From a bacterium (GTDB lineage: Bacteria; Elusimicrobiota; Elusimicrobia; Elusimicrobiales; UBA9959), in assembly GCA_021811185.1 (NCBI GenBank), contig JAJZPL010000002.1, forward strand, positions 1-64,000: a DNA stretch of 64,000 bases. Direction: 5' to 3'. Shown here in pieces: positions 9,719 to 28,071 of this stretch (the first letter of the stretch is position 1; each line of letters begins with the position of its first letter). Both the position numbers and the translations under genes were made by a program. The notes under the pieces were generated by a model that saw only the letters and a program-made list of their open reading frames with translations, was not told where the DNA came from and made no database searches.

Positions 9719-10487
9719 ACATCCACATGATCGCCGCGCCGAGCAGCACGCGGTAAACTATGAAAGGCGTCATCCCGCGCTTTTTCATCCAAGCCATGAA
9801 CAGCCAGATCACCGCCAGGCCCGTAAGGAACGAGGCCGCGAGCCCGGAGAGGAAAGCCGCGTCCACGCTGCCCGGCGTGAACTTGCGCATCTCCATCAGG
9901 CCCGCGCCCAGGATGATGGGCGTGCCCAGCAGGAAGGAGAGGCGCGCCGCCGAGGAGCGCGTGTAGCCCAAAAACAGCGCGGCCATCATGGTCATGCCGG
10001 CGCGCGAGGCCCCGGGCATGAGGGCCAGGCTCTGCGCCGCGCCTATGATAAGTGCGTCCTTGAGCGAAAAAGCGGCCTCGTCCAGTTTTTGCGCCGGCTT
10101 ACGGTCGGCCAGCCAGATGAAGACCGAAAAGAAGAGCAGGTTGAAGGCTATCCAGCGCGGGTCCCTGAACGCCGTTTCCGCCGCGTGGTTGAGCGCCAGG
10201 CCCGCCACGCCGGCCGGCACGGAGCCGGCCGCGAGCAGCCAGAGCAGGCGGCCGTCGTGTTCGCCGGGGCGCCGCACGGCGTCGGAAAAGATCTTGAACC
10301 AGTCTTTGGCGAAATACACCGCCACCGCCAGCAGCGTGCCGAGGTGCAGCATTACGTCGTAGGCCAGCCCCGGGTCCTGCCAGCCGAAGACCTTGGGGGC
10401 CAGCGCGAGGTGCGCCGAGCTCGAGACGGGGAGGAATTCTCCCGCGCCCTGAAGTATGCCTAACGCGATAGCCTGAAGTTCAGTCAT
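9708..10487 (-). CDS. uppP: Undecaprenyl-diphosphatase UppP (BacA)
   Basis: A 259-residue integral membrane phosphatase that recycles undecaprenyl pyrophosphate for cell wall and O-antigen synthesis. The (E/Q)xxxE signature is QGAGE (Q13, E17) followed by FLPVSSSAHL, and the second catalytic loop is MPGASRAGMTM. About seven to eight membrane helices. It is the last gene of a sixA-spoIID-uppP operon, overlapping the spoIID-like gene by 8 bases. Length is normal. Confidence 0.95.
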   Translation of the reverse strand: MTELQAIALGILQGAGEFLPVSSSAHLALAPKVFGWQDPGLAYDVMLHLGTLLAVAVYFAKDWFKIFSDAVRRPGEHDGRLLWLLAAGSVPAGVAGLALNHAAETAFRDPRWIAFNLLFFSVFIWLADRKPAQKLDEAAFSLKDALIIGAAQSLALMPGASRAGMTMMAALFLGYTRSSAARLSFLLGTPIILGAGLMEMRKFTPGSVDAAFLSGLAASFLTGLAVIWLFMAWMKKRGMTPFIVYRVLLGAAIMWMFRQ

Positions 10488-13447: not shown

Positions 13448-14284
13448 ATGACCGAGGAAATCAAGAATTCCAACTGGAGGCTCCGCAAGGGGCAGATCAT
13501 AGCCGCCAAGCAGATGACGCCCGCCGAAAAGTGGTTCGACATCAAGCTGGAGGACGGCGACCTGGACCACGAGCCAGGGCAGTTCGTGCAGGTGGAGCTG
13601 TACGGCATAGGCGAAGCGCCTATTTCCGTGTGTTCCAGCCCGACGAAGCGCGGCTCCTTCGAGCTGACCGTGCGCTCCGCCGGCCGGCTGACTAAGCACA
13701 TGCACTCGCTGGGCACGGGCGACTGGGTGGGCATCCGCGGACCCTTCGGCAAGCCCTTCCCCGTGAAGCTGATGACCGGCAACGACCTGCTGTTCGTGGC
13801 CGGCGGCCTGGGGATAGCGCCGCTCCGGTCCCTCATTAATTACGTGATGGACAACCGCCGCGAGTTCGGCAAAGTGGACATCCTGCTAGGCTGCAAGACC
13901 CCCGCGGACATGCTGTTCGGCGAGGAGATCAAGCTTTGGCAGAAGCGCCTGGACGTGAACTTCTCCTGCACCGTGGACCGCACGGCCCCGGACTGGAAGG
14001 GCAACGTGGGCCTGATCACCAGCCTGATCCCCGGCGTGAACATAAACCCGGAGAAGACCTTCGGCGTGGTGGTGGGCCCGCCCATCATGTACAAGTTCGT
14101 CATAGCCGAACTCCTTAAGAAGAACCTGCCCGAGCGCCAGATCATCCTCTCGCTCGAGCGGCACATGAAATGCGGCATGGGGAAATGCGGCCATTGCCAG
14201 ATAGACCACCCCAAGAACTACTACTGCTGCAAGGACGGCCCCACCTTTACCTACGAAGAGGTGAAGGAAGCGAAGAAACTTTAA
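13448..14284 (+). CDS. hydG: Sulfhydrogenase gamma subunit, FAD/NAD(P)H oxidoreductase
   Basis: A 278-residue ferredoxin-NADP reductase-like subunit. FAD-binding beta-barrel with EAPISVCSSP (residues about 57-66), then the NAD(P) domain with FVAGGLGIAPLRS. The C-terminal 2Fe-2S site uses C242, C247, C250 and C260 or C261 (KCGMGKCGHCQ). This is the subunit where NADP(H) binds. It begins 12 bases after hydB behind TAAGGAG SD. Confidence 0.94.
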   Translation: MTEEIKNSNWRLRKGQIIAAKQMTPAEKWFDIKLEDGDLDHEPGQFVQVELYGIGEAPISVCSSPTKRGSFELTVRSAGRLTKHMHSLGTGDWVGIRGPFGKPFPVKLMTGNDLLFVAGGLGIAPLRSLINYVMDNRREFGKVDILLGCKTPADMLFGEEIKLWQKRLDVNFSCTVDRTAPDWKGNVGLITSLIPGVNINPEKTFGVVVGPPIMYKFVIAELLKKNLPERQIILSLERHMKCGMGKCGHCQIDHPKNYYCCKDGPTFTYEEVKEAKKL

Positions 14285-14298
14285 GACGGAGAACAACG

Positions 14299-15072
14299 AT
14301 GACAATGGAAAATAAACCCGTACCCACAGCCGCCAAGCCCAAGGTGGCGTTCTTTGACTTCGCCTGCTGCGAAGGCTGCCAGCTGCAGGTGGCCAACCTG
14401 GGCGAGGCCCTGCTGGACATCCTCGGCGCCATCGACGTGGTGGAGTTCCGCGAGGTGATGAGCGAGAAATACGACAAGGATTACGACGTGGTCATAGTCG
14501 AGGGTTCGATCACCGACCATCACGCCGAGGAGCGCATCAAGAAGATCCGCGCGCGCGCCAAGGTGCTGATAGCCTACGGTTCCTGCGCCACCATCGGCGG
14601 CGTGAACGGCATGAAGAATTCCTTCGAACTGGACGAGATCCGGGCCAGCGTGTACGGCAAGGATTACAAGCTGTTCGACAGCACGCCTACCCGCCCCATC
14701 CACCAGGTGGTGAAGGTGGACTACTTCGTGAACGGCTGCCCCATCTACCCGCCCGAGCTGATAGAGGTGCTCAAGAACGCGCTGCGCGGCGTTCCCTACA
14801 CCGTGCCCGACAACCCGGTCTGCTCCGAGTGCAAGCTCAACGAGAACGTCTGCATGTACGAGCGGGGGATCTCCTGCCTGGGCCCGTGGACCAAGGCCGG
14901 CTGCAATTCGTGGTGCGTCAACAACGGCAACATCTGCTACGGCTGCCGCGGCGAGGTGAAGAACCCCGCCAGGAACGCCAACGACGTTATCGGCAAATAT
15001 AACCTGAAGCCCGAACTTATCAAAGCCAAGTTCGACATGTACAACAAGTGCAAGGAGGCCGACGCTAAATGA
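14299..15072 (+). CDS. hydD: Sulfhydrogenase delta subunit, [NiFe] small subunit
   Basis: A 257-residue small hydrogenase subunit carrying three Fe-S clusters. The proximal-cluster start is DFACCEGCQLQ, followed by YGSCATIGG and NGCPIYPPE, and a C-terminal cysteine set (VCSECKLNENVC, ISCLG, AGCNSWC, ICYGC). No Tat signal is present, as expected for the cytoplasmic group 3. The ATG at 14299 follows GACGGAGAAC; in-frame codons upstream overlap hydG and do not belong. Overlaps hydA by 4 bases. Confidence 0.95.
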   Translation: MTMENKPVPTAAKPKVAFFDFACCEGCQLQVANLGEALLDILGAIDVVEFREVMSEKYDKDYDVVIVEGSITDHHAEERIKKIRARAKVLIAYGSCATIGGVNGMKNSFELDEIRASVYGKDYKLFDSTPTRPIHQVVKVDYFVNGCPIYPPELIEVLKNALRGVPYTVPDNPVCSECKLNENVCMYERGISCLGPWTKAGCNSWCVNNGNICYGCRGEVKNPARNANDVIGKYNLKPELIKAKFDMYNKCKEADAK

Positions 15073-16400
15073 CCACCGACAACAAGAACCTGGATATCAA
15101 GGTAGAATATCTCACCCGCGTGGAAGGCCACGGCAACATAGTGGTGAACGTGAACAACGGCAAGGTGGAAAAGTGCGAGTTCCACGTGGTGGAATCGCCC
15201 CGGCTGTTCGAAGGGATGCTGCGCGGCCGCTCCATCTTCGAGGCGCAGCACATCACCAGCCGCATCTGCGGCATCTGCTCCTGCGGCCACACGCTGGCCT
15301 CCATCCAGGCGGCCGAGGACGCGCTGGGCGTAAAGCCCACGCCCCAGACCACCAAGCTCAGGAAGCTGCTGCTGGACTACGAGTTCCTCGACAGCCACAT
15401 CCTGCACGTCTACCTGCTGGCCGCGCCCGACATCCTGGGCGTGCCCTCGTTCGTGCCGCTGATCGCCACGCATAACGCCGTGGTGCGCCGCGCGCTGCGC
15501 ATGAAGAAAGCAGCCAACGACGTGTGCGACATCCTGGTGGGGCGCCACGTGCACCCGATCAGCGCCATCGTGGGCGGGTTCACCAAACTGCCCAGCCCCA
15601 AGGAGATCGACGCGCAGATCAAGATCCTGGAAGACATGGCCCCGGACATGGCCGAGACGCTCGCGCTCGCCAAGGCGCTGAAGTTCCCGGACTTCCACCG
15701 CGAGACCGAATACGTGGCGCTGGTCTCCGACGACGGCGAATACCCGCTGCTGGAGGGGGATATCGGTTCCACCGACGGCAAGCGCTTCAAGAAGGCCGAC
15801 TACAAGAAAGCCACCAACGAGTTCATAGACCCGCGCAGCTCCGCCAAGTTCACCAAGCTCTCCCGCGACAGCTTCTTCGTGGGCGCGCTCGCCCGGTTCA
15901 ACCTGAACGCGAACAAGCTGCACCCCAAGGCCAAGGCCGTGGCCGCCGAGCTGGGCCTGAAGCCCGTCTGCCACAACCCCTACCTTAACACCGTGGCGCA
16001 GATCGTGGAGATAGTGCACTGCTACTACCACGCGCTGGAGATCCTTCAGGACCTCAAAAAGAACGGCTTGGACTACAAGCAGGCCGTCACCGTGGGGGCC
16101 AACGAGAAGGGCGTAGTGCCCGTGCGCGCCGGCTCCGGCGTGGGCTCGGTGGAGGTGCCCCGCGGCATCCTGCACCACCACTACGAAACGGATAAGGACG
16201 GCAGGATCAAACTGGCCGACTGCATAATCCCTACCAACCAGAATATCAACAACATCGAGTACGACTTCGCGAAGCTCCTGCCCGAGATCATCACCCTGCC
16301 CAAGGACGACATCCGCCTGCGGCTGGAAATGCTGGTGCGGGCTTACGACCCGTGCATCTCTTGCTCGGCGCATTACCTCGATGTCAAATTCGTGGACTAA
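15069..16400 (+). CDS. hydA: Sulfhydrogenase alpha subunit, [NiFe] catalytic large subunit
   Basis: A 443-residue [NiFe] active-site subunit. L1 is RICGICSCGH (C67, C70 as Ni ligands, H74) and L2 is DPCISCSAH (C429, C432, H435). The eight residues after H435 form the cleavable C-terminal extension. RVEGHGNI near residue 17 is also diagnostic. Subunit order and L1/L2 forms fit group 3b, which couples H2 with NADP(H) and can reduce polysulfide. The downstream protease gene starts inside its last 20 bases. Confidence 0.96.
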   Translation: MTTDNKNLDIKVEYLTRVEGHGNIVVNVNNGKVEKCEFHVVESPRLFEGMLRGRSIFEAQHITSRICGICSCGHTLASIQAAEDALGVKPTPQTTKLRKLLLDYEFLDSHILHVYLLAAPDILGVPSFVPLIATHNAVVRRALRMKKAANDVCDILVGRHVHPISAIVGGFTKLPSPKEIDAQIKILEDMAPDMAETLALAKALKFPDFHRETEYVALVSDDGEYPLLEGDIGSTDGKRFKKADYKKATNEFIDPRSSAKFTKLSRDSFFVGALARFNLNANKLHPKAKAVAAELGLKPVCHNPYLNTVAQIVEIVHCYYHALEILQDLKKNGLDYKQAVTVGANEKGVVPVRAGSGVGSVEVPRGILHHHYETDKDGRIKLADCIIPTNQNINNIEYDFAKLLPEIITLPKDDIRLRLEMLVRAYDPCISCSAHYLDVKFVD

Positions 16401-16857
16401 AGAGGTAAGCGGCGCGCTGGCCCCCAGGGGCCGCACGCTCGTGATAACGCTGGGCAGCACGTTGAGGGCCGACGATGGCGTCGGCCCTTACGTTTGCACC
16501 CATGTGAAGTTCAGCCGCCCGGACCTGCGGCTGCTGGACGCCGGCACCACACCCGAAAGCATAGCCCAGACCGCCATAGACTGGAAGCCCGACAAGATCA
16601 TCCTCGTGGACGCGGCGCACTTTCAGGGCGCGGCGGGGGAACTGCGCGTGATCCCGCTGGAGGCTATTAACCAGCAGACCATCCTCTCCACGCACAGCTT
16701 CCCGCTGTCCGTCACGTTTTCCATCGTCAAGGAAGACACCGGAGCCGAGCTGGTGGTAGTAGGCGTGCAGGCCAAGTCCCTGGACTACAAAGAAGGCCTC
16801 TCCCCCGAAGTGGAAGAAACCGCTTCAAAACTTGCCGACTATTTTAACAGTCTTTAA
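16381..16857 (+). CDS. Hydrogenase maturation endopeptidase (HycI/HyaD family)
   Basis: A 158-residue protease that trims the large-subunit C-terminus after Ni insertion. Landmarks: TLGSTLRADDGVGPYV (nickel-sensing acidic residues), LLDAGTTPE and ILVDAAHFQGAAGE. It overlaps hydA by 20 bases, tying its production to the substrate. The presumed cut is after H435 of HydA. Confidence 0.92.
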   Translation: MSNSWTKEVSGALAPRGRTLVITLGSTLRADDGVGPYVCTHVKFSRPDLRLLDAGTTPESIAQTAIDWKPDKIILVDAAHFQGAAGELRVIPLEAINQQTILSTHSFPLSVTFSIVKEDTGAELVVVGVQAKSLDYKEGLSPEVEETASKLADYFNSL

Positions 16858-16940: not shown

Positions 16941-18059
16941 TTGCGTTCTTTTGTTTTACTTCTCGCCGTGCTTTCTTTAAGCATTCCAGCCTGCTTTGCC
17001 GGGGCGGACAAAACGCTGCTTTCCGCCCGGGAATCCATCCTTTTATCTTCAGCCGCCCCGCAAACCGCGCTGATAAAATACACCGAAGCCTCCAAAAGAT
17101 CCATAGCCGCGCCTGTCACCGCCGAATACGCCTACGCGCTGGCGTGGGGCGGGGTGCCGGAGGCGGCGCTGTTTAACATGGACCGCGCGCTCATAGAGGC
17201 GCCGCTTGACGCCGGCGTGCGGTTCTATCTGTCGGAAATCTTCAACGCCTTCGGCCTGGAGGACGCCTCTTCCGAGCTGGCCGCGCCGGTGCCCGGGTGG
17301 CTTAAAGCGCCGCTTAAACTGCCCGTCCTGGACGTGCCGGCGCCGACCGGCGATCTGGAACATGCGCTGGCCGTCATAAACCTGCTGATGGTGCAGAAAC
17401 GTTATGTCGAAAGCGCCGTGCTGTTCGACCGGCTATGCAAAGCCAATGCCTCCGCCGGCCAGTGTTACGCCGGCTACGCCATAGCGCTCGAGAAACTCGG
17501 CGCTTACAAGTCCGCCGCGGCGGAAGCTGAAAAAGACCTTGCGTTAAGCGATGTGCCCGGCCATAGGACCGTGGCGCAGGCGTATATAACCGGGCTTGAA
17601 AAGCGCGCGCCGCTGAAATACGGCGTCAGCCCGGAGCAGGGGCTTAAGGGGCGGTACCTGGCTTTTTTGGGCGGCAACGTTTCGAACGCCCCGGGGTATT
17701 CGGCCTACAGCGTAAACGGGCGCGTGGGAAAATTTATCAGCGACAGGTTCGACCTCTCGGTCAACGGCGGGCTTAACGGGGGGAACAGCGATAGCGACTA
17801 TAACGGGCTGACGCTGGGCTGTTCGGGGCGTTATAACGCGCCTTTAAGTTTTCTGCCGGTCAACGGCACGCTGGGGGCGAAAGCCGAGCGTATTCCCGCC
17901 CCCGAGAAAGGCCTTACGTTTTTGCTGTCGCCCGGGTTGAGCTATTTCATGCGGAATAGTTCGGTGGATGTTTACCTGGATATAGCGCTGGCGGGCGCCT
18001 ATAGCGGCAGCAGAACGCTGTCCGTGGGTTATACGTTCTATTTTGGCGGCGGGAAATGA
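16941..18059 (+). CDS. Secreted TPR-like / beta-barrel protein, first gene of the Rhs operon
   Basis: A 372-residue envelope protein of unknown function. The only start giving a signal peptide is TTG at 16941 (RSFVLLLAVLSLSIPACFA), preceded by AGGGGA. Residues about 40-220 look helical and TPR-like (ALAVINLLMVQKRYVESAV, AGYAIALEKLGAYKSAAAE). From about 230 it becomes beta-rich, beginning YLAFLGGNVSNAPGYSAY and ending LSVGYTFYFGGGK, as in small outer-membrane barrels. That C-terminal barrel is paralogous to the one in the next gene. ATGA overlap with the next gene. I infer an outer-membrane role linked to the Rhs protein. Confidence 0.7.
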   Translation: MRSFVLLLAVLSLSIPACFAGADKTLLSARESILLSSAAPQTALIKYTEASKRSIAAPVTAEYAYALAWGGVPEAALFNMDRALIEAPLDAGVRFYLSEIFNAFGLEDASSELAAPVPGWLKAPLKLPVLDVPAPTGDLEHALAVINLLMVQKRYVESAVLFDRLCKANASAGQCYAGYAIALEKLGAYKSAAAEAEKDLALSDVPGHRTVAQAYITGLEKRAPLKYGVSPEQGLKGRYLAFLGGNVSNAPGYSAYSVNGRVGKFISDRFDLSVNGGLNGGNSDSDYNGLTLGCSGRYNAPLSFLPVNGTLGAKAERIPAPEKGLTFLLSPGLSYFMRNSSVDVYLDIALAGAYSGSRTLSVGYTFYFGGGK

Positions 18060-18793
18060 AGAAAACTATGCTGCTGGCGCTGGTAATGTTCATGACCGCG
18101 GGCGCGGCCCATGCGGGTGATTGCCCGGCGGTATTAAGCGGCGCTTTTAGCGGCTGTAAAGTATCGGGCGGAATAATGCGCCTGGGGGCCACCCGGGTAT
18201 ATTTGAATGATAAGGCCGGGGAGCGGGCGGCTGCGGTAGCCGGCGCCGCCGGCGGGGCAGGCGGGCTGGCCGTGGTGGCCTGGCCCGGCGGTGGCGAACT
18301 TTGGTCGGTCGGCAAAGGCGCGCCTGAGCGGCTGAACGGGTGGAACGACCTTGTGCTGGACGCCCTGGCGACGAGCAGCCGGCGCGGTAATTGGTTCGCA
18401 TATTTCGGCGGGCAGGTAATGAGCGGCGGGGATTATCCCTACAGCGGCTTCAACGCGAGGCTCGGCACCATGCTGTTAAAGAACCGTTACGACGCCTCGG
18501 TAGGCTATTCAACCTCCAAGGCCAGCGAGGACGGCGCCTCGGCCACGCGCTCGCTGGACCTGACCGGGCGGGCGCTGTTCAATTTTACGCGGCATTCCGG
18601 GCTTAACGCCGGCGCCAGGCTGGGGTACGCCAGATCCGGCGACGCGGACGGCATGTGGACGCCGTCGGTGCTGGGTGGGCTGAATATTTATCTGCCGCAG
18701 GGCAGCCTGGACCTGACCTTTACCTTCGGCGAGGCGGGCAGCCGCAGTGTGGAGCTTGGATACACGGTTTACTTCAACAGGGGCGGGCGATGA
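18056..18793 (+). CDS. Secreted beta-barrel protein, second gene of the Rhs operon
   Basis: A 245-residue protein with signal peptide MKKTMLLALVMFMTAGAAHA. A short first domain (about 22-105) precedes a barrel-like domain starting WFAYFGGQVMSGGDYPYSG and ending VELGYTVYFNRGGR. Its order of features (aromatic-GG start, YSGFNARLG, RYDASVGYS, terminal YxVYF) parallels the C-terminal domain of the gene before. It overlaps both neighbours by ATGA, so the barrel pair and the Rhs gene are made together. No homologous family recognised by name. Confidence 0.7.
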   Translation: MKKTMLLALVMFMTAGAAHAGDCPAVLSGAFSGCKVSGGIMRLGATRVYLNDKAGERAAAVAGAAGGAGGLAVVAWPGGGELWSVGKGAPERLNGWNDLVLDALATSSRRGNWFAYFGGQVMSGGDYPYSGFNARLGTMLLKNRYDASVGYSTSKASEDGASATRSLDLTGRALFNFTRHSGLNAGARLGYARSGDADGMWTPSVLGGLNIYLPQGSLDLTFTFGEAGSRSVELGYTVYFNRGGR

Positions 18794-21700
18794 AACGGCT
18801 GCTTCCCCTGGTCCTTATCTTTGCCGTTCCTGTCGGGCGGGCGCGGGCGAGCTGGACGTATTCCGGCACGTATTCCTGGCATGTTACCGCTACCTGCTGC
18901 AGCGGCGGTACCTGTTCCACCGGCGGGGTGTCCGGCGGGGATAATTTACTGCAGGGCGGCCTTTCGGCCGCCGATTGCGCGTACCTTAAGACTTCCTTAG
19001 GCGGAGCGCTGACCACTATACGGGCGGTATACCAGAGCCAGCTGGCCTTATGCCAGGCCAGCGCCTGCACCTGCAGCGGCGATTTTCAGATCGGCAATTC
19101 CAGGTGCAGCGGGTTCGACGATTTCGGCGCCGGTTCTTTCAACGGCCAGGGCGCGTTCAGCCAGACGGGCGAGGGGGTGGCGCAGTTCTCGCCGCATTAC
19201 ACTTCCGATTTCGAGGAATGGTCCACCGACGCCATGGCGCGGTGGCGCGCGTTCCGCGCGCGCAACGCGCTGGTGCAGAGCGAGGGCGTGAATATCTGGC
19301 CCAACGGCAGGTTCGGCGGCTTGGTGGAAGGCATCTACAACAAAATTGCCGCCAGGCAAAAAGCCCGGCCGGCGCCGCTGTACCCTTCGCTCGACGGCAG
19401 TTCCGCGCCGGAGAGCTCGGATGAATATGCCGGGCACTACGTGGACTATAAAATGCTGAAAGCGGACGAGCCTTCGTACGCGCAGCTGGCCGGCGAATCC
19501 CTTTTGAACGGCGAGCTGGAGAAACAGCCAGGGTGCGGCTGCCAGCCAAGCGCTTCCGTAGCGCCTGGTTACAGCATCCAGTACAATTCCCTGCGCGGCG
19601 GCCAGTACGAAGCCGCGGAGCAGAAAGTGGAGCGTTTCCCCGACGGGCGCTCCGTGTTCACGGATGACGGCAATACCCGCTGGATCTTTCGCCCTTACGG
19701 CAGCGCGGACCGGGAAAAAGGCGACAACTATTACAAACCGCCGCCGGGCTGCGCGTACAGGCTTGTTTACGGCGACATTACCGGGCACGCGCGCGGCTAC
19801 CGGGTTGAAAGCCCCGACGGCGGCGTTATGGAATTCTCCACGGCCCCCGGGCGGGACCTCTGGCGCCCGAGCCGCTATAACGCGGCGGACGGGAGCTGGC
19901 TCACCTACGATTACGGGACTAACGGGTTGGCGCGGATAACGGATATGCACGGGCGTTATTTCGCCTGCGAGCGCGACGCGCGCGGTTTGCCGCTGACGGT
20001 TACGGACAATGACGGCAAAAAGACGACTTATTCCTACGACGCCGCCGGGCGCGTGACCGCGGCCTTGCTGCCCGACGGCTTTAAAAAGCAGTTCACCTAT
20101 GATCCCGCGGGCCTGATGACCTCCGCCAGGAACGGCGCGCTGGCGGCCGAGCATTACACCTACGACCCTTCGGGCCGCCTGCTAACGTCCGAATCCGAGG
20201 GGGGCGTGAACCGCCTGGAGCATTACTACTACGACGCTTCCTCCAAAACCGCTATTGCCGACGCTTTCGGCGCGAAGACCGTATTCACTTACAAGAACGA
20301 AGGCGGGCACAAGCTGACTACGGCGGTAACCGACGCGCTGGGCGGTAAAACCGCGCTTACCTACGACGCGAATTATAATATAGCCTCGGCCACGGACCAG
20401 CTTGGCCGCGCCGCCAGGTATGCGCGCAACAACAACGGCGACCCCGAAGCCATTACCGACGCGCTGGGCAATACCGCTACCATACAGTACCAGGTGAAGC
20501 TTAATTACAAAGACGTTCTCGGCGAACATACCGACTACTATTCAAGACCCGTAAAGATAACCGACGCCCTTGGCCGCAAGACCAAACTGGATTATGATAG
20601 CTACGGCAACCTGGCCAGGACCGAGGACGCGCTGGGCAACAAAACCGGCATGGCTTACGACAAAGCCGGCCACATGCTGGAGCTGCGTGACGCCATGGGG
20701 GCCACCTACAAGTACGAATACACCATGGGTTTAACCCGAAGCGTAGACCCGCTTGGCCGCGTAACAAAATACAAGCGTGACGCGGACCTGCACGTTACCC
20801 AACTTGTGGATCCGCTCGGGCGCAGCACCACTTTTACCTACGACCTCAGCGGCAACGTGACCGAGGTGCGTAATCCGGCCAATTTCGTCACTAAATTCGC
20901 ATATGGCAACGGCGCGTGCCCTTCCTGCGGCGGCAGCCAGCTTTCGGCCCTTACCGACCCTAAGGGTAATACTTGGACCTTTGGTTATGATCAGTATGGC
21001 CGGCTGACCGATACTGCCAACCCGCTTGGTCAGCGCAAGGCTTACGCTTACGACAAAATGTCGCGTGTGACGGAAGTTAAAGACCCGGCGGGCAATGTCA
21101 CGGCTTACACTTATGACGCGCTGAACCGGCTGACCAGGAAAGATATACAGACGCCTTCCGGCGTTCATGCCGTAACAACCTACACTTACGACGCCGTGGG
21201 CAATATGCTGTCGGCCTCCAACGGGGAAAGTTCTGTGGCTTTTGTCTACGACGCGCTGAACCGCGCCGTGGAAACCCGGCAAAGCTTCGCCGGCAAGACC
21301 TACACCATCAGCTACGCTTACGATGCAGTTGGCAACCGCACCATGATGGCCACGCCGTGGGGGAAATACAGTTACACTTACGACGTGCTGAACCGCGTGA
21401 ACGCCATCACCAATCCGCAGGGCATACAAATTAACTTTAAATACGACGCCGCCGGCCGCCGCACGGGTAAGACCGTATTCGCCGCGGCCCGCAACACCGC
21501 GCCTCTCGCCGAGACCGCTTATTCCTACGACGCCGCCGGGCAGCTTTTGAGCATCACCAATAAAGCCGGCGGCAAGGTAGTGGCTTTCGATAATTACACC
21601 TACGACGCCCTGGGCAACCGCGTCAGGATAGAAGACCAGGACGGCGTAAAAGACTACACCTACGACAAGTCCAGCCGGCTGATAGTGGTTAAGCCGGTGC

Positions 21701-22923
21701 CTTTCAATATGGCCAATGCCGAGGCCTTTGTCTACGACCGTAACGGCAACCGCCGCTACGATCGCGGCGCCAAAGACTACAAATACGACGCCGCCAACCG
21801 CCTGCTGGAGAACACAGTCTATACTTACACCCACGACCAGCTAGGCAACCTGACCAGCCGCACCGAAATCGCCAGCAGCGCCACCATCATCTACGCCTAC
21901 AATCCCGAGCAGCAACTGTTCGAAGTTGTAACGCCGAAAGATAAGCTGGAATACAAATACGACCCACTGGGCCGTCGTACCGGTCGTACAGTAAACGGCG
22001 CTACGGTCCACTATGTCTACGACGGACAGGACATAATCACGGAACTAGACGAAGCCGGAACCCCTATCAACACCTACACCAACGGCCCCGGCATAGACGA
22101 GCCTCTGGTAATGTCCAAGCCCGAAGGCAAGGCTTACTACTATCATGCCGACGCCCTGGGAAGCATAACTGCAATAACGGACGACGCTAGAAAGTTAGTG
22201 GAAACCTACACTTATAAATCCTATGGCCAAGCGACGGTAAAGGATGCTGGTGGCCAAATAAGTGCTGACTCTCAGGTTGGGAATCTGCGCATGTTCGCCG
22301 CCCGAGAATTTGAGCCAGAGCTAGGCCTCTACAATAATCGCCATCGCTATCTGGACCCGATGCGCGGTGCATTTACGCAAGAAGATCCGATCGGGTTTGA
22401 AGGTAAGGATTTAAATCTTTTTGAGTATGTGTTTTCTTCTCCGCAGAGATCCGGAGACTCGCTGGGTTTAATTACTGATGAGCAATTAGGGAATAAGGAG
22501 AACCATCTTCCGCAAAATGATAGCCCACTTTTGACCAAACAGGATATCGTTAATTGGCTTAGATCGTATGGGAAAGTGCAAATCAATTTTAATGCGGGTA
22601 CTGGCGTAGTCGGAGGATCAGGCCAGCTCCAAATTACAGAGACAGGTCTTTATGGGCGTGTCGGCGGAGGATGGGGCATAGGGTGGGGAATGTCCGGTGG
22701 TCCATCTGTTTCGATAGGAAAGAATTCGGGTTGGGGTTTTTGGGTGTCGGGATCAGGGGGAAATGGTCGTGTCGGATCTTCAATATCCGGGGGGTATTCT
22801 CAAGGGGGACTCAATGGAAGCTATAGCTATGGGTGGGGAGTGGGTAATGGGGAATCAGCTGTTTTCGGCTATAAAGGCTTAATACTTGCCTTTCCACAGT
22901 CTTCCAATGTCTGCACTAAGTAA
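18790..22923 (+). CDS. Sec-exported Rhs/YD-repeat protein with glycine-rich tip
   Basis: A 1377-residue Rhs protein. The start at 18790 overlaps the previous stop (ATGA) and opens a signal peptide (MKRLLPLVLIFAVPVGRARA). Residues 22-120 are Cys-rich; YD repeats (for example TYDALNRLT, YDAVGNR) run from about 330 to 1150. The core-closing signature is LDPMRGAFTQEDPIGFEG at about 1188-1205, ending with DSLG instead of the usual DPLG. After it base composition drops sharply and a variable tip of about 150 residues follows, rich in Gly, Ser and Trp (GGGWGIGWGMSGG). The tip matches no toxin family I recognise. No VgrG, PAAR or Tc components lie nearby. Confidence 0.9.
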   Translation: MKRLLPLVLIFAVPVGRARASWTYSGTYSWHVTATCCSGGTCSTGGVSGGDNLLQGGLSAADCAYLKTSLGGALTTIRAVYQSQLALCQASACTCSGDFQIGNSRCSGFDDFGAGSFNGQGAFSQTGEGVAQFSPHYTSDFEEWSTDAMARWRAFRARNALVQSEGVNIWPNGRFGGLVEGIYNKIAARQKARPAPLYPSLDGSSAPESSDEYAGHYVDYKMLKADEPSYAQLAGESLLNGELEKQPGCGCQPSASVAPGYSIQYNSLRGGQYEAAEQKVERFPDGRSVFTDDGNTRWIFRPYGSADREKGDNYYKPPPGCAYRLVYGDITGHARGYRVESPDGGVMEFSTAPGRDLWRPSRYNAADGSWLTYDYGTNGLARITDMHGRYFACERDARGLPLTVTDNDGKKTTYSYDAAGRVTAALLPDGFKKQFTYDPAGLMTSARNGALAAEHYTYDPSGRLLTSESEGGVNRLEHYYYDASSKTAIADAFGAKTVFTYKNEGGHKLTTAVTDALGGKTALTYDANYNIASATDQLGRAARYARNNNGDPEAITDALGNTATIQYQVKLNYKDVLGEHTDYYSRPVKITDALGRKTKLDYDSYGNLARTEDALGNKTGMAYDKAGHMLELRDAMGATYKYEYTMGLTRSVDPLGRVTKYKRDADLHVTQLVDPLGRSTTFTYDLSGNVTEVRNPANFVTKFAYGNGACPSCGGSQLSALTDPKGNTWTFGYDQYGRLTDTANPLGQRKAYAYDKMSRVTEVKDPAGNVTAYTYDALNRLTRKDIQTPSGVHAVTTYTYDAVGNMLSASNGESSVAFVYDALNRAVETRQSFAGKTYTISYAYDAVGNRTMMATPWGKYSYTYDVLNRVNAITNPQGIQINFKYDAAGRRTGKTVFAAARNTAPLAETAYSYDAAGQLLSITNKAGGKVVAFDNYTYDALGNRVRIEDQDGVKDYTYDKSSRLIVVKPVPFNMANAEAFVYDRNGNRRYDRGAKDYKYDAANRLLENTVYTYTHDQLGNLTSRTEIASSATIIYAYNPEQQLFEVVTPKDKLEYKYDPLGRRTGRTVNGATVHYVYDGQDIITELDEAGTPINTYTNGPGIDEPLVMSKPEGKAYYYHADALGSITAITDDARKLVETYTYKSYGQATVKDAGGQISADSQVGNLRMFAAREFEPELGLYNNRHRYLDPMRGAFTQEDPIGFEGKDLNLFEYVFSSPQRSGDSLGLITDEQLGNKENHLPQNDSPLLTKQDIVNWLRSYGKVQINFNAGTGVVGGSGQLQITETGLYGRVGGGWGIGWGMSGGPSVSIGKNSGWGFWVSGSGGNGRVGSSISGGYSQGGLNGSYSYGWGVGNGESAVFGYKGLILAFPQSSNVCTK
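21014..22215 (+). repeat. Rhs core repeat, copy 1
   Basis: Encodes the stretch from TANPLGQRKAYAYDKMSRVT to ETYTYKSYG in the full-length Rhs gene. It is clearly homologous over about 1.2 kb to 23307-24525, with long identical amino acid runs such as NGESSV, TPWGKYSYTYD and GNLTSRTEIASSATI. Confidence 0.88.
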
Positions 22924-22924
22924 T

Positions 22925-23272
22925 ATGAATATTATGACAACTGACAGGTTCCTTTGGTCATGTTTTGCCTGCTTGGGGTTATTGATGTGTGTGGTGATAC
23001 GATATCGGTATCTTTTTGATTCGTATCTAAAAAATAATCATGCGGATATATGGTGTTCGCTTTCCAGCGGGTCACGTTTCCCGATGACGGATCCTAAGAC
23101 CGCCAAGGCCATTATGCATTTCTTGATCAAAAAAGAATATTTACGAGTTGATGACGCACGCCTAACGGCTATCTCAAGAAAATTAATGCTCTCGCAATTA
23201 GTATATATAACGTTTATGAGCGTGTTTTTTATTCTTGGGATTATGAAAATACGTTCTGGCAGAATTGGATAG
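22925..23272 (+). CDS. Small membrane protein, candidate immunity for the first Rhs tip
   Basis: A 115-residue protein starting at ATG 22925, directly after the Rhs stop. Two hydrophobic segments (about residues 8-24, LWSCFACLGLLMCVVI, and 86-106, LVYITFMSVFFILGI) flank a charged middle. AT-rich like the Rhs tip before it, unlike the GC-rich backbone. Position immediately after a variable Rhs tip is the normal place for a cognate immunity gene; two membrane spans would suit a membrane-acting toxin. No named family recognised, so immunity is inference. Confidence 0.6.
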   Translation: MNIMTTDRFLWSCFACLGLLMCVVIRYRYLFDSYLKNNHADIWCSLSSGSRFPMTDPKTAKAIMHFLIKKEYLRVDDARLTAISRKLMLSQLVYITFMSVFFILGIMKIRSGRIG

Positions 23273-25146
23273 TGGGAGTCTATGTGTCGCCACGAAGAAT
23301 AGTCAATACAGCCAACCCGCTGGGTCAGGCCAAGGCCTACAATTACGACAAGATGTCCCGTGTCACCGAGATTAAGGATCCCGCCGGCAATATAACCTCT
23401 TATACCTATGATGCCCTGAACAGACTGACGAAGAAAGACATTCAGACCACGGCCGGGATACATTCAATAACGGACTATACTTATGATGCCGTTGGGAACC
23501 TTCTGAATATCGCCAATGGGGAGAGCTCGGTCAGCTATACCTACGACCAGTTGAACCGCCCTATTACGACCAGCCAGGCCTTCGCCGGCAAAACTTATCC
23601 CATAACCTATTCCTACGACGCGGTAGGGAACCGCGTCAGTATGACCACGCCGTGGGGGAAATACAGTTACACCTACGACGCGCTGAACCGCTTAACGTCC
23701 ATCCTGAACCCGCAGGGCATAACCGCGGCCTTCACTTACGACGCCGTCGGCCGCCGCACCAGTAAAAAAATCTTCAAAGCCACCCCGGAGCTGCTGGCCG
23801 AGGCTGATTACACTTACGACGCCGCAGGCGAACTGTTAAGCATAACCAACAAAGCAGACAACAAGGTCGTGGCCTTTGCCAACTACGAGTACGACGCCGC
23901 CGGCAACCGGATTAAGAAAGAGGACCAGAACGGCGTAGAGAAATACCGTTACGACGCCGCCAACCGCCTTATAACCGCCGAGCCCGTCCCGTTCGACATG
24001 GCCAAGGCGGAGGGTTTTGTCTATGACAGGAACGGCAACAGAAGATTCGACCGTGGCGCGAAAGACTATAAATACGACGCCGCCAACCGTGTGCTATCTA
24101 ACAGCGTCTACACCTACACGCACGACGCCAACGGCAACCTGACCAGCCGCACCGAAATAGCCAGCAGCGCCACGATAACCTACGCCTATAACCCGGAGCA
24201 ACAGCTTTCCGAAGTGACCACGCCCAAGGATAACTTGGCGTACAAATACGACCCCTTAGGCCGCCGCACTGAAAAGACCGTGAACGGCATTAGCGATAGA
24301 TATGTCTACGATAACGAAGATATAATCGCCATACTGGATAGCAATAGTAACCTGGCCGAAACATTCACCCACGGCCCGGGAATTGATGAGCCGCTGCTTA
24401 TGACAAAAGCGGATGGGAACAATTATTATTACCATGCCGACGGGCTGGGCTCCATAGTGACTTTGACCGACGAAAAAGGCCAGGTACTCGAAACATATGC
24501 GTACAAATCTTATGGCTACGCCACTATAAAGGACCAGAAAGGTGCAATTTTTGATAAATCTAACATAAGCAACCCGTACTTTTTTACGGCTAGGGAACTC
24601 GAAGACGCGTCGGGGTTGTATTATTTGCGCCATAGATATTACGACTGGAATAGGGGGGCTTTTACACAAGAAGATCCGATTGGGTTTGTAGGGATAGATT
24701 TAAATCTATACTCATATGTGCTGGATAATCCCATATTGCTGCTTGATCCGTTTGGCTTACATGCGTTAATATTTGATGGAAAGATTTTGCAGTATTTTAA
24801 TGATGAGATGCGTTTGGTTGGAACATATAACGCGACTTCTGGGGCAATAAATGTTACAGATAGAACGCTAAAAGGAAAGGGCCCCATTCCATTTGGCCTC
24901 TATCTGCTGTATCCGAGTGAGATTTCTAAGACTAATTTTATCCGGAAGTTTCTGGGGGATTGGGGGGAATATCGTGTTCCTTTGCATCCGACATCAGGAA
25001 CAGATACATTTGGCCGAGGTGGTTTCTTTTTGCATGGAGGCAAACGCCCAGGATCAGCTGGATGTGTGGATGTTGGGGCGCAGGACATCGAACTATTTCC
25101 GAAGCTAATTACCCATGAATCCCCAATACTCCTTATTTCTAAATAA
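23272..25146 (+). CDS. Truncated Rhs module with L,D-transpeptidase-like (Tlde1/DUF2778-type) tip
   Basis: A 624-codon frame beginning at GTG 23272, which overlaps the preceding stop. It lacks a signal peptide, the Cys-rich head and the first half of the YD shell, joining Rhs homology abruptly at TANPLGQAKAYNYDKMS. The core ends RGAFTQEDPIGFVG then LLLDPFGLH. The AT-rich tip (about residues 496-624) includes GPIPFGLYLL, LHPTSGTDTFGRGGFFLHGG and the catalytic HGGKRPGSAGC (H588, C598). That histidine-glycine-cysteine pattern is the L,D-transpeptidase active site, closest to DUF2778/Tlde1, toxins that damage peptidoglycan. It may be a silent donor cassette or a coupled product. Confidence 0.8.
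   Translation: MGVYVSPRRIVNTANPLGQAKAYNYDKMSRVTEIKDPAGNITSYTYDALNRLTKKDIQTTAGIHSITDYTYDAVGNLLNIANGESSVSYTYDQLNRPITTSQAFAGKTYPITYSYDAVGNRVSMTTPWGKYSYTYDALNRLTSILNPQGITAAFTYDAVGRRTSKKIFKATPELLAEADYTYDAAGELLSITNKADNKVVAFANYEYDAAGNRIKKEDQNGVEKYRYDAANRLITAEPVPFDMAKAEGFVYDRNGNRRFDRGAKDYKYDAANRVLSNSVYTYTHDANGNLTSRTEIASSATITYAYNPEQQLSEVTTPKDNLAYKYDPLGRRTEKTVNGISDRYVYDNEDIIAILDSNSNLAETFTHGPGIDEPLLMTKADGNNYYYHADGLGSIVTLTDEKGQVLETYAYKSYGYATIKDQKGAIFDKSNISNPYFFTARELEDASGLYYLRHRYYDWNRGAFTQEDPIGFVGIDLNLYSYVLDNPILLLDPFGLHALIFDGKILQYFNDEMRLVGTYNATSGAINVTDRTLKGKGPIPFGLYLLYPSEISKTNFIRKFLGDWGEYRVPLHPTSGTDTFGRGGFFLHGGKRPGSAGCVDVGAQDIELFPKLITHESPILLISK
23307..24525 (+). repeat. Rhs core repeat, copy 2
   Basis: Second copy of the Rhs core segment, homologous to 21014-22215 and in the same orientation. 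It offers a recombination substrate that would exchange one tip plus downstream gene for the other. Confidence 0.88.
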
Positions 25147-25147
25147 T

Positions 25148-25564
25148 ATGAAAACATTGCAATATGTTTTGGGTGGACTAGTAACTGAAATTGTTGGCAT
25201 CGTTGCATTTGTACGATTTGCTAACACCTTCAAAAGCCTGACGCCTAAATATGCCATTATCACGCTTGTATTATGTGTTTTTGTAGGCTTAATGTTTAAA
25301 ACATTACTTTTCCTTAATCGCAAAAAAATCTTAACGGCATTTGTATCCTTTTCTACTTTAAGTGTAATCGTATTGCAAGTGCTCGGCAGGTTCTTTTATT
25401 CTGGAATTCTGAAAGATATTGGGTTATTCTCTTGGGACAATTTCAACATTGTCATGTTCACGACAGCTGGAATTATACTTTCCCAGGTTATTTTCTATCT
25501 ATTTGCATACTTGTTTGCAAAACTTATGAAGTGTAGTGTAAACCGCTCTAGTCGTGAGTCTTAA
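25148..25564 (+). CDS. Four-span membrane protein, candidate immunity for the transpeptidase-like tip
   Basis: A 138-residue AT-rich gene starting 1 base after the Rhs module stop. About four hydrophobic segments: VLGGLVTEIVGIVAFV, AIITLVLCVFVGLM, VSFSTLSVIVLQVLG and IVMFTTAGIILSQVIFYLF. Position makes it the natural immunity candidate. Known Tlde1 immunity proteins are periplasmic or membrane anchored, but I see no specific family match. Inference only. Confidence 0.6.
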   Translation: MKTLQYVLGGLVTEIVGIVAFVRFANTFKSLTPKYAIITLVLCVFVGLMFKTLLFLNRKKILTAFVSFSTLSVIVLQVLGRFFYSGILKDIGLFSWDNFNIVMFTTAGIILSQVIFYLFAYLFAKLMKCSVNRSSRES

Positions 25565-25759
25565 ATACTGGCCGGTGAAAGCGGCGAACTGACCACTATA
25601 GTGAACGGGATGAAATACAGGTTGACGGTGAGGAACGAAAAAACGCTGAGTTATAAGCCCGAAGGCCAGCCGCTGGGGGCCAATGAACAACTTTATAAAG
25701 CCGATTTCGGCGGCACGGCCGCCGCGGTGGCGCTTACCTACTCTTTCGCAAATTGGTAG
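25565..25759 (+). pseudogene. 3' remnant of a beta-barrel protein gene
   Basis: An open frame of 64 codons and a stop, with no start, bounded upstream by an in-frame TAA (25562-25564). It translates to a barrel-like C-terminus: TTIVNGMKYRLTVRNEKTL, then ADFGGTAAAVALTYSFANW and stop. Alternating hydrophobic strands and a final aromatic residue fit an outer-membrane protein. GC content jumps back to backbone level here, so this looks like the surviving end of a gene interrupted when the Rhs cassette arrived. Confidence 0.6.
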
Positions 25760-27666: not shown

Positions 27667-28071
27667 ATGCATGAATGGGCACTGGCTGAATCCGTGATCA
27701 AGACCGTGGTGGAGCACTCCAAGGCGCAGAAGCTTAAGAAGCTGAAGGAAGCCGGGGTGCTTTTCGGCGAGCTGCAGGCCATAGACAAGGAAATTTTTAC
27801 TTTCGCGCTGGACGAGCTGCGCCGCCAGTTCCCCGCGGCGAAGGACTGCAAGTTCAAGATCCTCACGGAGCCGGCGGCTTTCCGCTGCAAGGCCTGCGCG
27901 CACGAATTCCCGCTGAAAGGGCTGAAGAAGACCAAGGACGAGGCGGAGTTCATACATTTCGTGCCGGAGATGGCGCACAGCTTCCTTAAATGTCCCAAGT
28001 GCAAGAGCCCGGATTTCGAAATAGCGAAAGGCCGCGGCGTGACCATAAGTTATATAAAAGGCGACCGATGA
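27667..28071 (+). CDS. hypA: Hydrogenase nickel incorporation protein HypA
   Basis: A 134-residue nickel chaperone. The N-terminus MHEWALAES carries the Ni-binding MHE motif. The zinc site uses CKAC and CPKC. The insertion between the cysteine pairs (about 35 residues, LKGLKKTKDEAEFIHFVPEM) is longer than in E. coli HypA and resembles archaeal forms. It overlaps the HypB-like gene by ATGA, so the two act together, delivering Ni to the hydrogenase encoded at 12-16 kb. Confidence 0.94.
   Translation: MHEWALAESVIKTVVEHSKAQKLKKLKEAGVLFGELQAIDKEIFTFALDELRRQFPAAKDCKFKILTEPAAFRCKACAHEFPLKGLKKTKDEAEFIHFVPEMAHSFLKCPKCKSPDFEIAKGRGVTISYIKGDR

Follow-up and report, generated by a model that had tools for sequence, protein, structure and literature searches.

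Does a headless Rhs module that follows a complete Rhs gene in an Elusimicrobiota genome serve as a spare tip, to be loaded behind the signal peptide of the resident gene by recombination, or does it do something else? The first-pass annotation had described the module as a cassette arranged for switching. The anatomy of the locus, its two core copies, its tips and the Rhs loci of related genomes were compared.

Organization of the Rhs locus

The window is the whole stretch of 64,000 nucleotides that was analysed (G000:C3:1-64000), taken from a draft genome of 3.09 Mb in 79 contigs with an estimated contamination of 5.2%. It carries two Rhs modules in direct orientation, in the order full Rhs gene, membrane gene, headless module and second membrane gene, all on the + strand. 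The resident gene (18790-22923; 1377 aa) encodes a signal-peptide-like N-terminus, YD/RHS repeats, an Rhs_assc_core domain (46.9 bits against a cut-off of 32.5) and a variable tip, and was classed as an Rhs polymorphic toxin on its repeats, its above-cut-off core and its tip. Tip 1 (22471-22923) is a Gly-rich C-terminal domain of 150 aa, placed after DSLGL, to which no family was assigned. Behind it lies a gene for a small membrane protein with about two TM segments (22925-23272), presumed from its position to be immunity 1.

The headless module (module 2; 23272-25146, 624 aa) has a GTG start and carries RHS repeats and an Rhs_assc_core domain (62.3 bits). Its core half (23305-24759) is homologous to residues of about 740-1227 of the resident protein, encoded at 21010-22467, and continues into a different tip (tip 2; 24760-25146). 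A gene for a small multi-TM membrane protein (25148-25564), presumed immunity 2, follows, and a homologue of it adjoins tip 2 in another genome (G004). A headless core fragment that lies downstream in direct orientation and bears a tip unlike the resident's is an orphan Rhs module. The first-pass annotation had read the sequence in this way, as a headless second module with a direct core repeat, a different tip and a different adjoining membrane gene, and the open reading frames and the alignment bear it out. Its length of about 1.2 kb for the repeat corresponds to the BLASTN alignment (71% over 1242 bp, E 4e-165); homology extends slightly further, over about 1.45 kb. The GC content is about 57-58% in the core, 35-50% in the tips, small genes and junctions, and about 60% in the flanks; low-GC tips beside GC-rich cores fit the horizontal origin that had been proposed for them.

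Rhs loci of the genus are framed by two genes before the head, here called up2 and up1, and by a gene of 360-390 aa after the last module. In the window up2 (16941-18059, +; 372 aa) gave a weak TPR match, and up1 (18056-18793, +; 245 aa), which is conserved directly upstream of the Rhs heads, matched no family. Complete copies of the downstream gene are present at eight sister loci, which belong to seven genomes, and the window's own genome has four more elsewhere. Of the window copy only the last 64 codons are left (25565-25759, +), directly behind the stop of the second membrane gene. As judged from these gene layouts, the window's copy would have been destroyed when module 2 arrived or by a later deletion. 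The remnant starts at codon 330, and a copy on another contig (G005:C13, from G005:C13:3) starts at codon 332; the coincidence perhaps marks a shared break point, or else an assembly limit. By eye up1 resembles a small beta-barrel. The framing genes look by eye like genes for outer-membrane proteins, and might form a putative export aid for Rhs proteins of the signal-peptide type.

Reading frame, start and core of module 2

Module 2 starts at a GTG that overlaps the TAG with which the first membrane gene ends. A promoter scan at 23272 gave no site clearly above chance, and no terminator-like site was seen on the + strand between the two modules. The N-terminus of module 2 (MGVYVSPRRIVNTANPLGQ) was judged by eye to be without an export signal. 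Lacking a signal peptide, and starting only at a GTG within that overlap, module 2 would probably yield little toxin and export none of it. The reading frame is open across all 624 codons, and in a tree of core halves the branch of module 2 (0.26) is not longer than that of the resident (0.33), so the module has not decayed and may be used; from these data it would either be in use or have been decaying for a short time.

The two core copies share 71% of their DNA and 67% of their protein sequence, with a dS of about 1.7 (saturated silent sites) and a dN/dS of 0.16. Identity per 100 bp is flat (0.56-0.81), with no homogenised tract. In the tree the two copies do not join, and module 2 is thus not a recent local duplicate.

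Tips and small membrane proteins

Family searches in Pfam, NCBIfam, PHROGs and PADLOC gave nothing usable for tip 1 or either membrane gene. Tip 1 had a single weak relative (29% identity) among the 294 phylum genomes searched, and presumed immunity 1 had none in the other 58 genomes of the family that were searched. Fold searches were dropped for both tips, the AlphaFold model of tip 1 being uninformative (pLDDT 35) and the predicted structure of tip 2 too poor (pLDDT 42). Among the tips of sister loci is a domain bearing HExxH, whose match to Peptidase_M91 lies near the cut-off.

Tip 2 resembles L,D-transpeptidase domains of the Tlde1/YkuD kind and contains the motif H-x6-S-x-G-C. It scored 23.8 bits with YkuD (cut-off 23.4) and 29.5 bits with Tlde1_dom (cut-off 30.1), while its homologue in G004 reached 32.3 bits with Tlde1_dom, above the cut-off. 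Residues H92, S99, G101 and C102 are spaced as H121, S128, G130 and C131 are in Tlde1a. Like the Tlde1 effectors (PMC9638812), tip 2 has an H and a C ten residues apart and an S three residues before the C; its scores lie close to the cut-offs of the two profiles, above for YkuD and below for Tlde1_dom. Unlike those effectors, it is attached to an Rhs core, shows no sign of being a T6SS effector and has a multi-TM presumed immunity protein; the second His of the (S/T)HGC motif, H129 in Tlde1a, is Ala in both tips of this family (Ala100 in tip 2, and likewise in the G004 homologue). Tip 2 would most naturally be read as a toxin that attacks peptidoglycan, its antidote sitting in the membrane.

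Among the 294 phylum genomes, clear relatives of tip 2 are confined to the window genome and G004 (76% aa identity); the remaining matches are short and local and fall in one genus of another family. The G004 tip is also headless, has its own membrane gene behind it (43% aa identity to the product of 25148-25564), and sits with that gene amid other core and tip debris. Between the window and G004 dN/dS is 0.10 for tip 2 and 0.20 for the membrane gene; the tip value points to an old, constrained, travelling protein. Recent tip movement between species of the genus is directly evidenced by 183 bp of the G003 tip, which a remnant in G010 matches at 98.9% identity.

Comparison with displacement loci

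In the C-terminal displacement described for Rhs genes of Enterobacteriaceae, the core fragments match the resident core either exactly or at about 92% identity (PMC2935791, Jackson et al. 2009). Those loci and the window have in common a full Rhs gene followed by fragments of the 3' part of the core with unlike tips, a low-GC trough, direct core repeats and silent-looking fragments. The window differs in its core (67% aa identity), its phylum, its signal-peptide type of Rhs protein, its half-core fragment and its truncated downstream gene. Orphan tips in enterobacteria had been named as the parallel in the first-pass annotation, correctly so by PMC2935791 and PMC3967940. No paper was found that reports an orphan Rhs module of the C-terminal-displacement kind for Elusimicrobiota.

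On this comparison, the window probably holds an ordinary orphan tip/immunity module of the displacement kind, in Elusimicrobiota. Put more fully, the reading that we consider likely is a multi-copy Rhs locus of the signal-peptide type that carries a single orphan tip/immunity module, left by displacement of a C-terminus. The resident gene would deliver tip 1. Module 2 would have entered, or stayed behind, as half a diverged core with a Tlde1-like tip and an antidote, and the same event or a later one would have cut away most of the conserved downstream gene. Its toxin would be made in small amounts and not exported, and the accompanying membrane gene may still shield the cell from neighbours bearing tip 2. 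Module 2 is more likely to record a past event, and perhaps to supply an immunity gene, than to be a spare tip that can be loaded. The anatomy, the core divergence, the mosaics of the sister genomes, the second occurrence of the tip-2 pair and the truncated gene are direct observations; the toxin and immunity activities (by family and position), the silence of module 2 and the order of events we infer. Two findings speak against this reading: the orphan frame is intact on a branch not longer than the resident's, and the window cores lack the near-identity of the enterobacterial orphan cores (PMC2935791). If the reading holds, a pattern of tip displacement worked out in enterobacteria extends to an uncultured phylum and to Rhs proteins of the signal-peptide type.

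Assembly in trans with a split shell of the TcC kind was also considered. Like TcC-type subunits, module 2 would be a separate protein in which a tip is joined to the C-terminal portion of an Rhs shell, and there is a weak sequence match over the last 110 residues of the core, in which residues 383-496 of module 2 align with the final residues (555-664) of TccC2, a chain of 664 aa. The orphan core (about 488 aa), in contrast, begins at residue 9 of module 2, which by length places its start well within the TcC core (about 660 aa), some 170 residues in; no tipless partner half was seen in the window. The idea was rejected because by length the break point does not lie at the TcB/TcC boundary.

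Rhs loci in sister genomes

The genus set comprised 32 genomes, 12 of which gave matches to the Rhs head. In four of them (G003, G013, G015 and G022) a resident gene is followed by one or two modules that repeat the corresponding core half. In the 5' third of the repeat, resident and own orphan are 94% identical at the protein level in G003, 89 and 92% in G013, 89% in G022 and 85% in G015. Their longest exact DNA runs are 113 bp in G003, 104 and 139 bp in G013, 60 bp in G015 and 58 bp in G022, and the pairs hold stretches of 100 bp at 95-100% DNA identity, set against about 50-70% in the tip-proximal part of most. The last third of the repeat is 50-80% identical in all resident/orphan pairs. 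Between genomes of the window resident's clade, identity in the 5' third is mostly 60-77% (a difference of 23-40% for most), so slow evolution of this third was ruled out as the cause of the identity within the sister pairs. A segment that is diverged between genomes and near-identical within them indicates copies homogenised within genomes. The sister comparison gave a signature of resident/orphan recombination in these four genomes, and core exchange does appear, from the alignments, to go on where repeats are near-identical.

The window pair has 72% protein identity in the same third, no more than is seen between genomes, and the window resident is nearer to another Rhs protein of its genome, on contig C69 (77%), than to its own orphan. 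Tip turnover driven by recombination is thereby supported, at the level of sequence comparison, for the genus and not for the window pair. Comparing core identity within and between genomes provides a test for claims of switching, which several sister genomes pass and the window locus fails.

Orphan half-core modules with signal peptides of their own occur in G003, in G022 and at locus L050, which suggests that some orphans of the genus may have become genes in their own right. The G022 orphan has an SD-like GAGG just before its ATG, which lies directly behind the immunity stop. The signal peptides of the orphans at L031:9506, L030:5776 and L050:4376 end alike (YASLPIS, HASFAVP and YASLPVS). 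These orphans raise an alternative in which those of the genus are partly exported short half-core toxins whose 5' core is kept near-identical by gene conversion, and module 2 of the window is a decapitated or not yet re-headed form. We hold this to be unlikely, at roughly one chance in a handful. 

A related alternative makes module 2 itself a second working gene, coupled to the stop of immunity 1 and exported or held by another route, with both toxins fixed and used together. The GTG/TAG overlap, the intact frame, the lack of a + strand terminator-like site between the modules and the signal-peptide-bearing orphans of G003, G022 and L050 (that of G022 with its GAGG) would agree with it. It is made improbable by the missing signal peptide and by the extent of the core, since the half that corresponds to resident residues 740-1227 is about the second half of solved Rhs cores and, judged by those structures, would scarcely suffice to enclose a shell by itself.

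Three orphan modules, in G013 and G015, have an 84-bp element placed exactly at their 5' junction, with copies that are 81-87% identical (L042:6631-6714 and 10404-10486 on the - strand, L085:8918-8996 on the + strand). It occurs nowhere else in the 32 genus genomes and is absent from the window genome.

Recombination between the core copies of the window

In Salmonella LT2 the order main gene, immunity gene, orphan, immunity gene is the same as in the window, and the orphan likewise is without export signals; in this one proven case main gene and orphan share a repeat with 95% identity over 522 bp, and recombinant forms were found (PMC3967940, Koskiniemi et al. 2014). An active switch of this kind in the window, in which recombination between the cores would delete tip 1 and immunity 1 and install tip 2 behind the signal peptide, perhaps after duplication of the locus as in LT2, is improbable. 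The direct repeat of 1.45 kb, the suitable order of tip and membrane gene, the intact orphan frame and the exchange visible in sister pairs would suit it. So would the two longest exact runs, of 28 bp (21350-21377, + strand, shared with 23645-23672) and 26 bp (21844-21869, + strand, shared with 24133-24158), since the identical block required to initiate recombination in bacteria is no longer than about 30 bp (PMC8918686). On the other side, mismatch repair stops an exchange once it reaches diverged DNA (PMC8918686). With 71% identity in place of 95% over 522 bp, flat along the repeat, and no exact run beyond 28 bp, the near-identical repeat of an LT2-type switch is lacking, and exchange between the two copies should be possible but very rare. 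No full Rhs head joined to tip 2 was found among the 294 phylum genomes. The cassette arranged for switching, and the installation of tip 2 by core recombination, are accordingly not borne out for this locus; identity blocks long enough for recombination, the lack of which had been named as the refuting outcome, are largely missing. Site-specific switching was discarded too, with no recombinase among the nine flanking genes scanned and no inverted repeat at the locus.

Assembly and other Rhs loci

That tip variants of a population were joined into one contig of the draft genome is very improbable: several Rhs loci of this genome have contig ends near or inside them, the end of contig C3 shares 106 bp at 99% with the end of C78 in an unexpected orientation, and some contamination is estimated, but the window locus lies inside a contig of 160 kb, other copies have no long word in common with its junctions (23272-23305 and 25565), and the same layout recurs in independent genomes. 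The 106-bp match between the contig ends (L105:4312-4417 and L109:4460-4565) is itself probably an assembly artefact at Rhs loci.

The window's Rhs locus is flanked on one side by a NiFe hydrogenase operon with its maturation protease HycI (13448-16857) and on the other by hypA (27667-28068). In a scan of named genomes, only Elusimicrobia MAGs gave relatives, GWB2_63_16 and CG1_02_56_21 among them. A degenerate Rhs locus of the same genome (L106; G000:C27:94500-103500) has kept the flanking genes, up2 with a stop; its head and core are gone, and small tip- or immunity-like genes remain.
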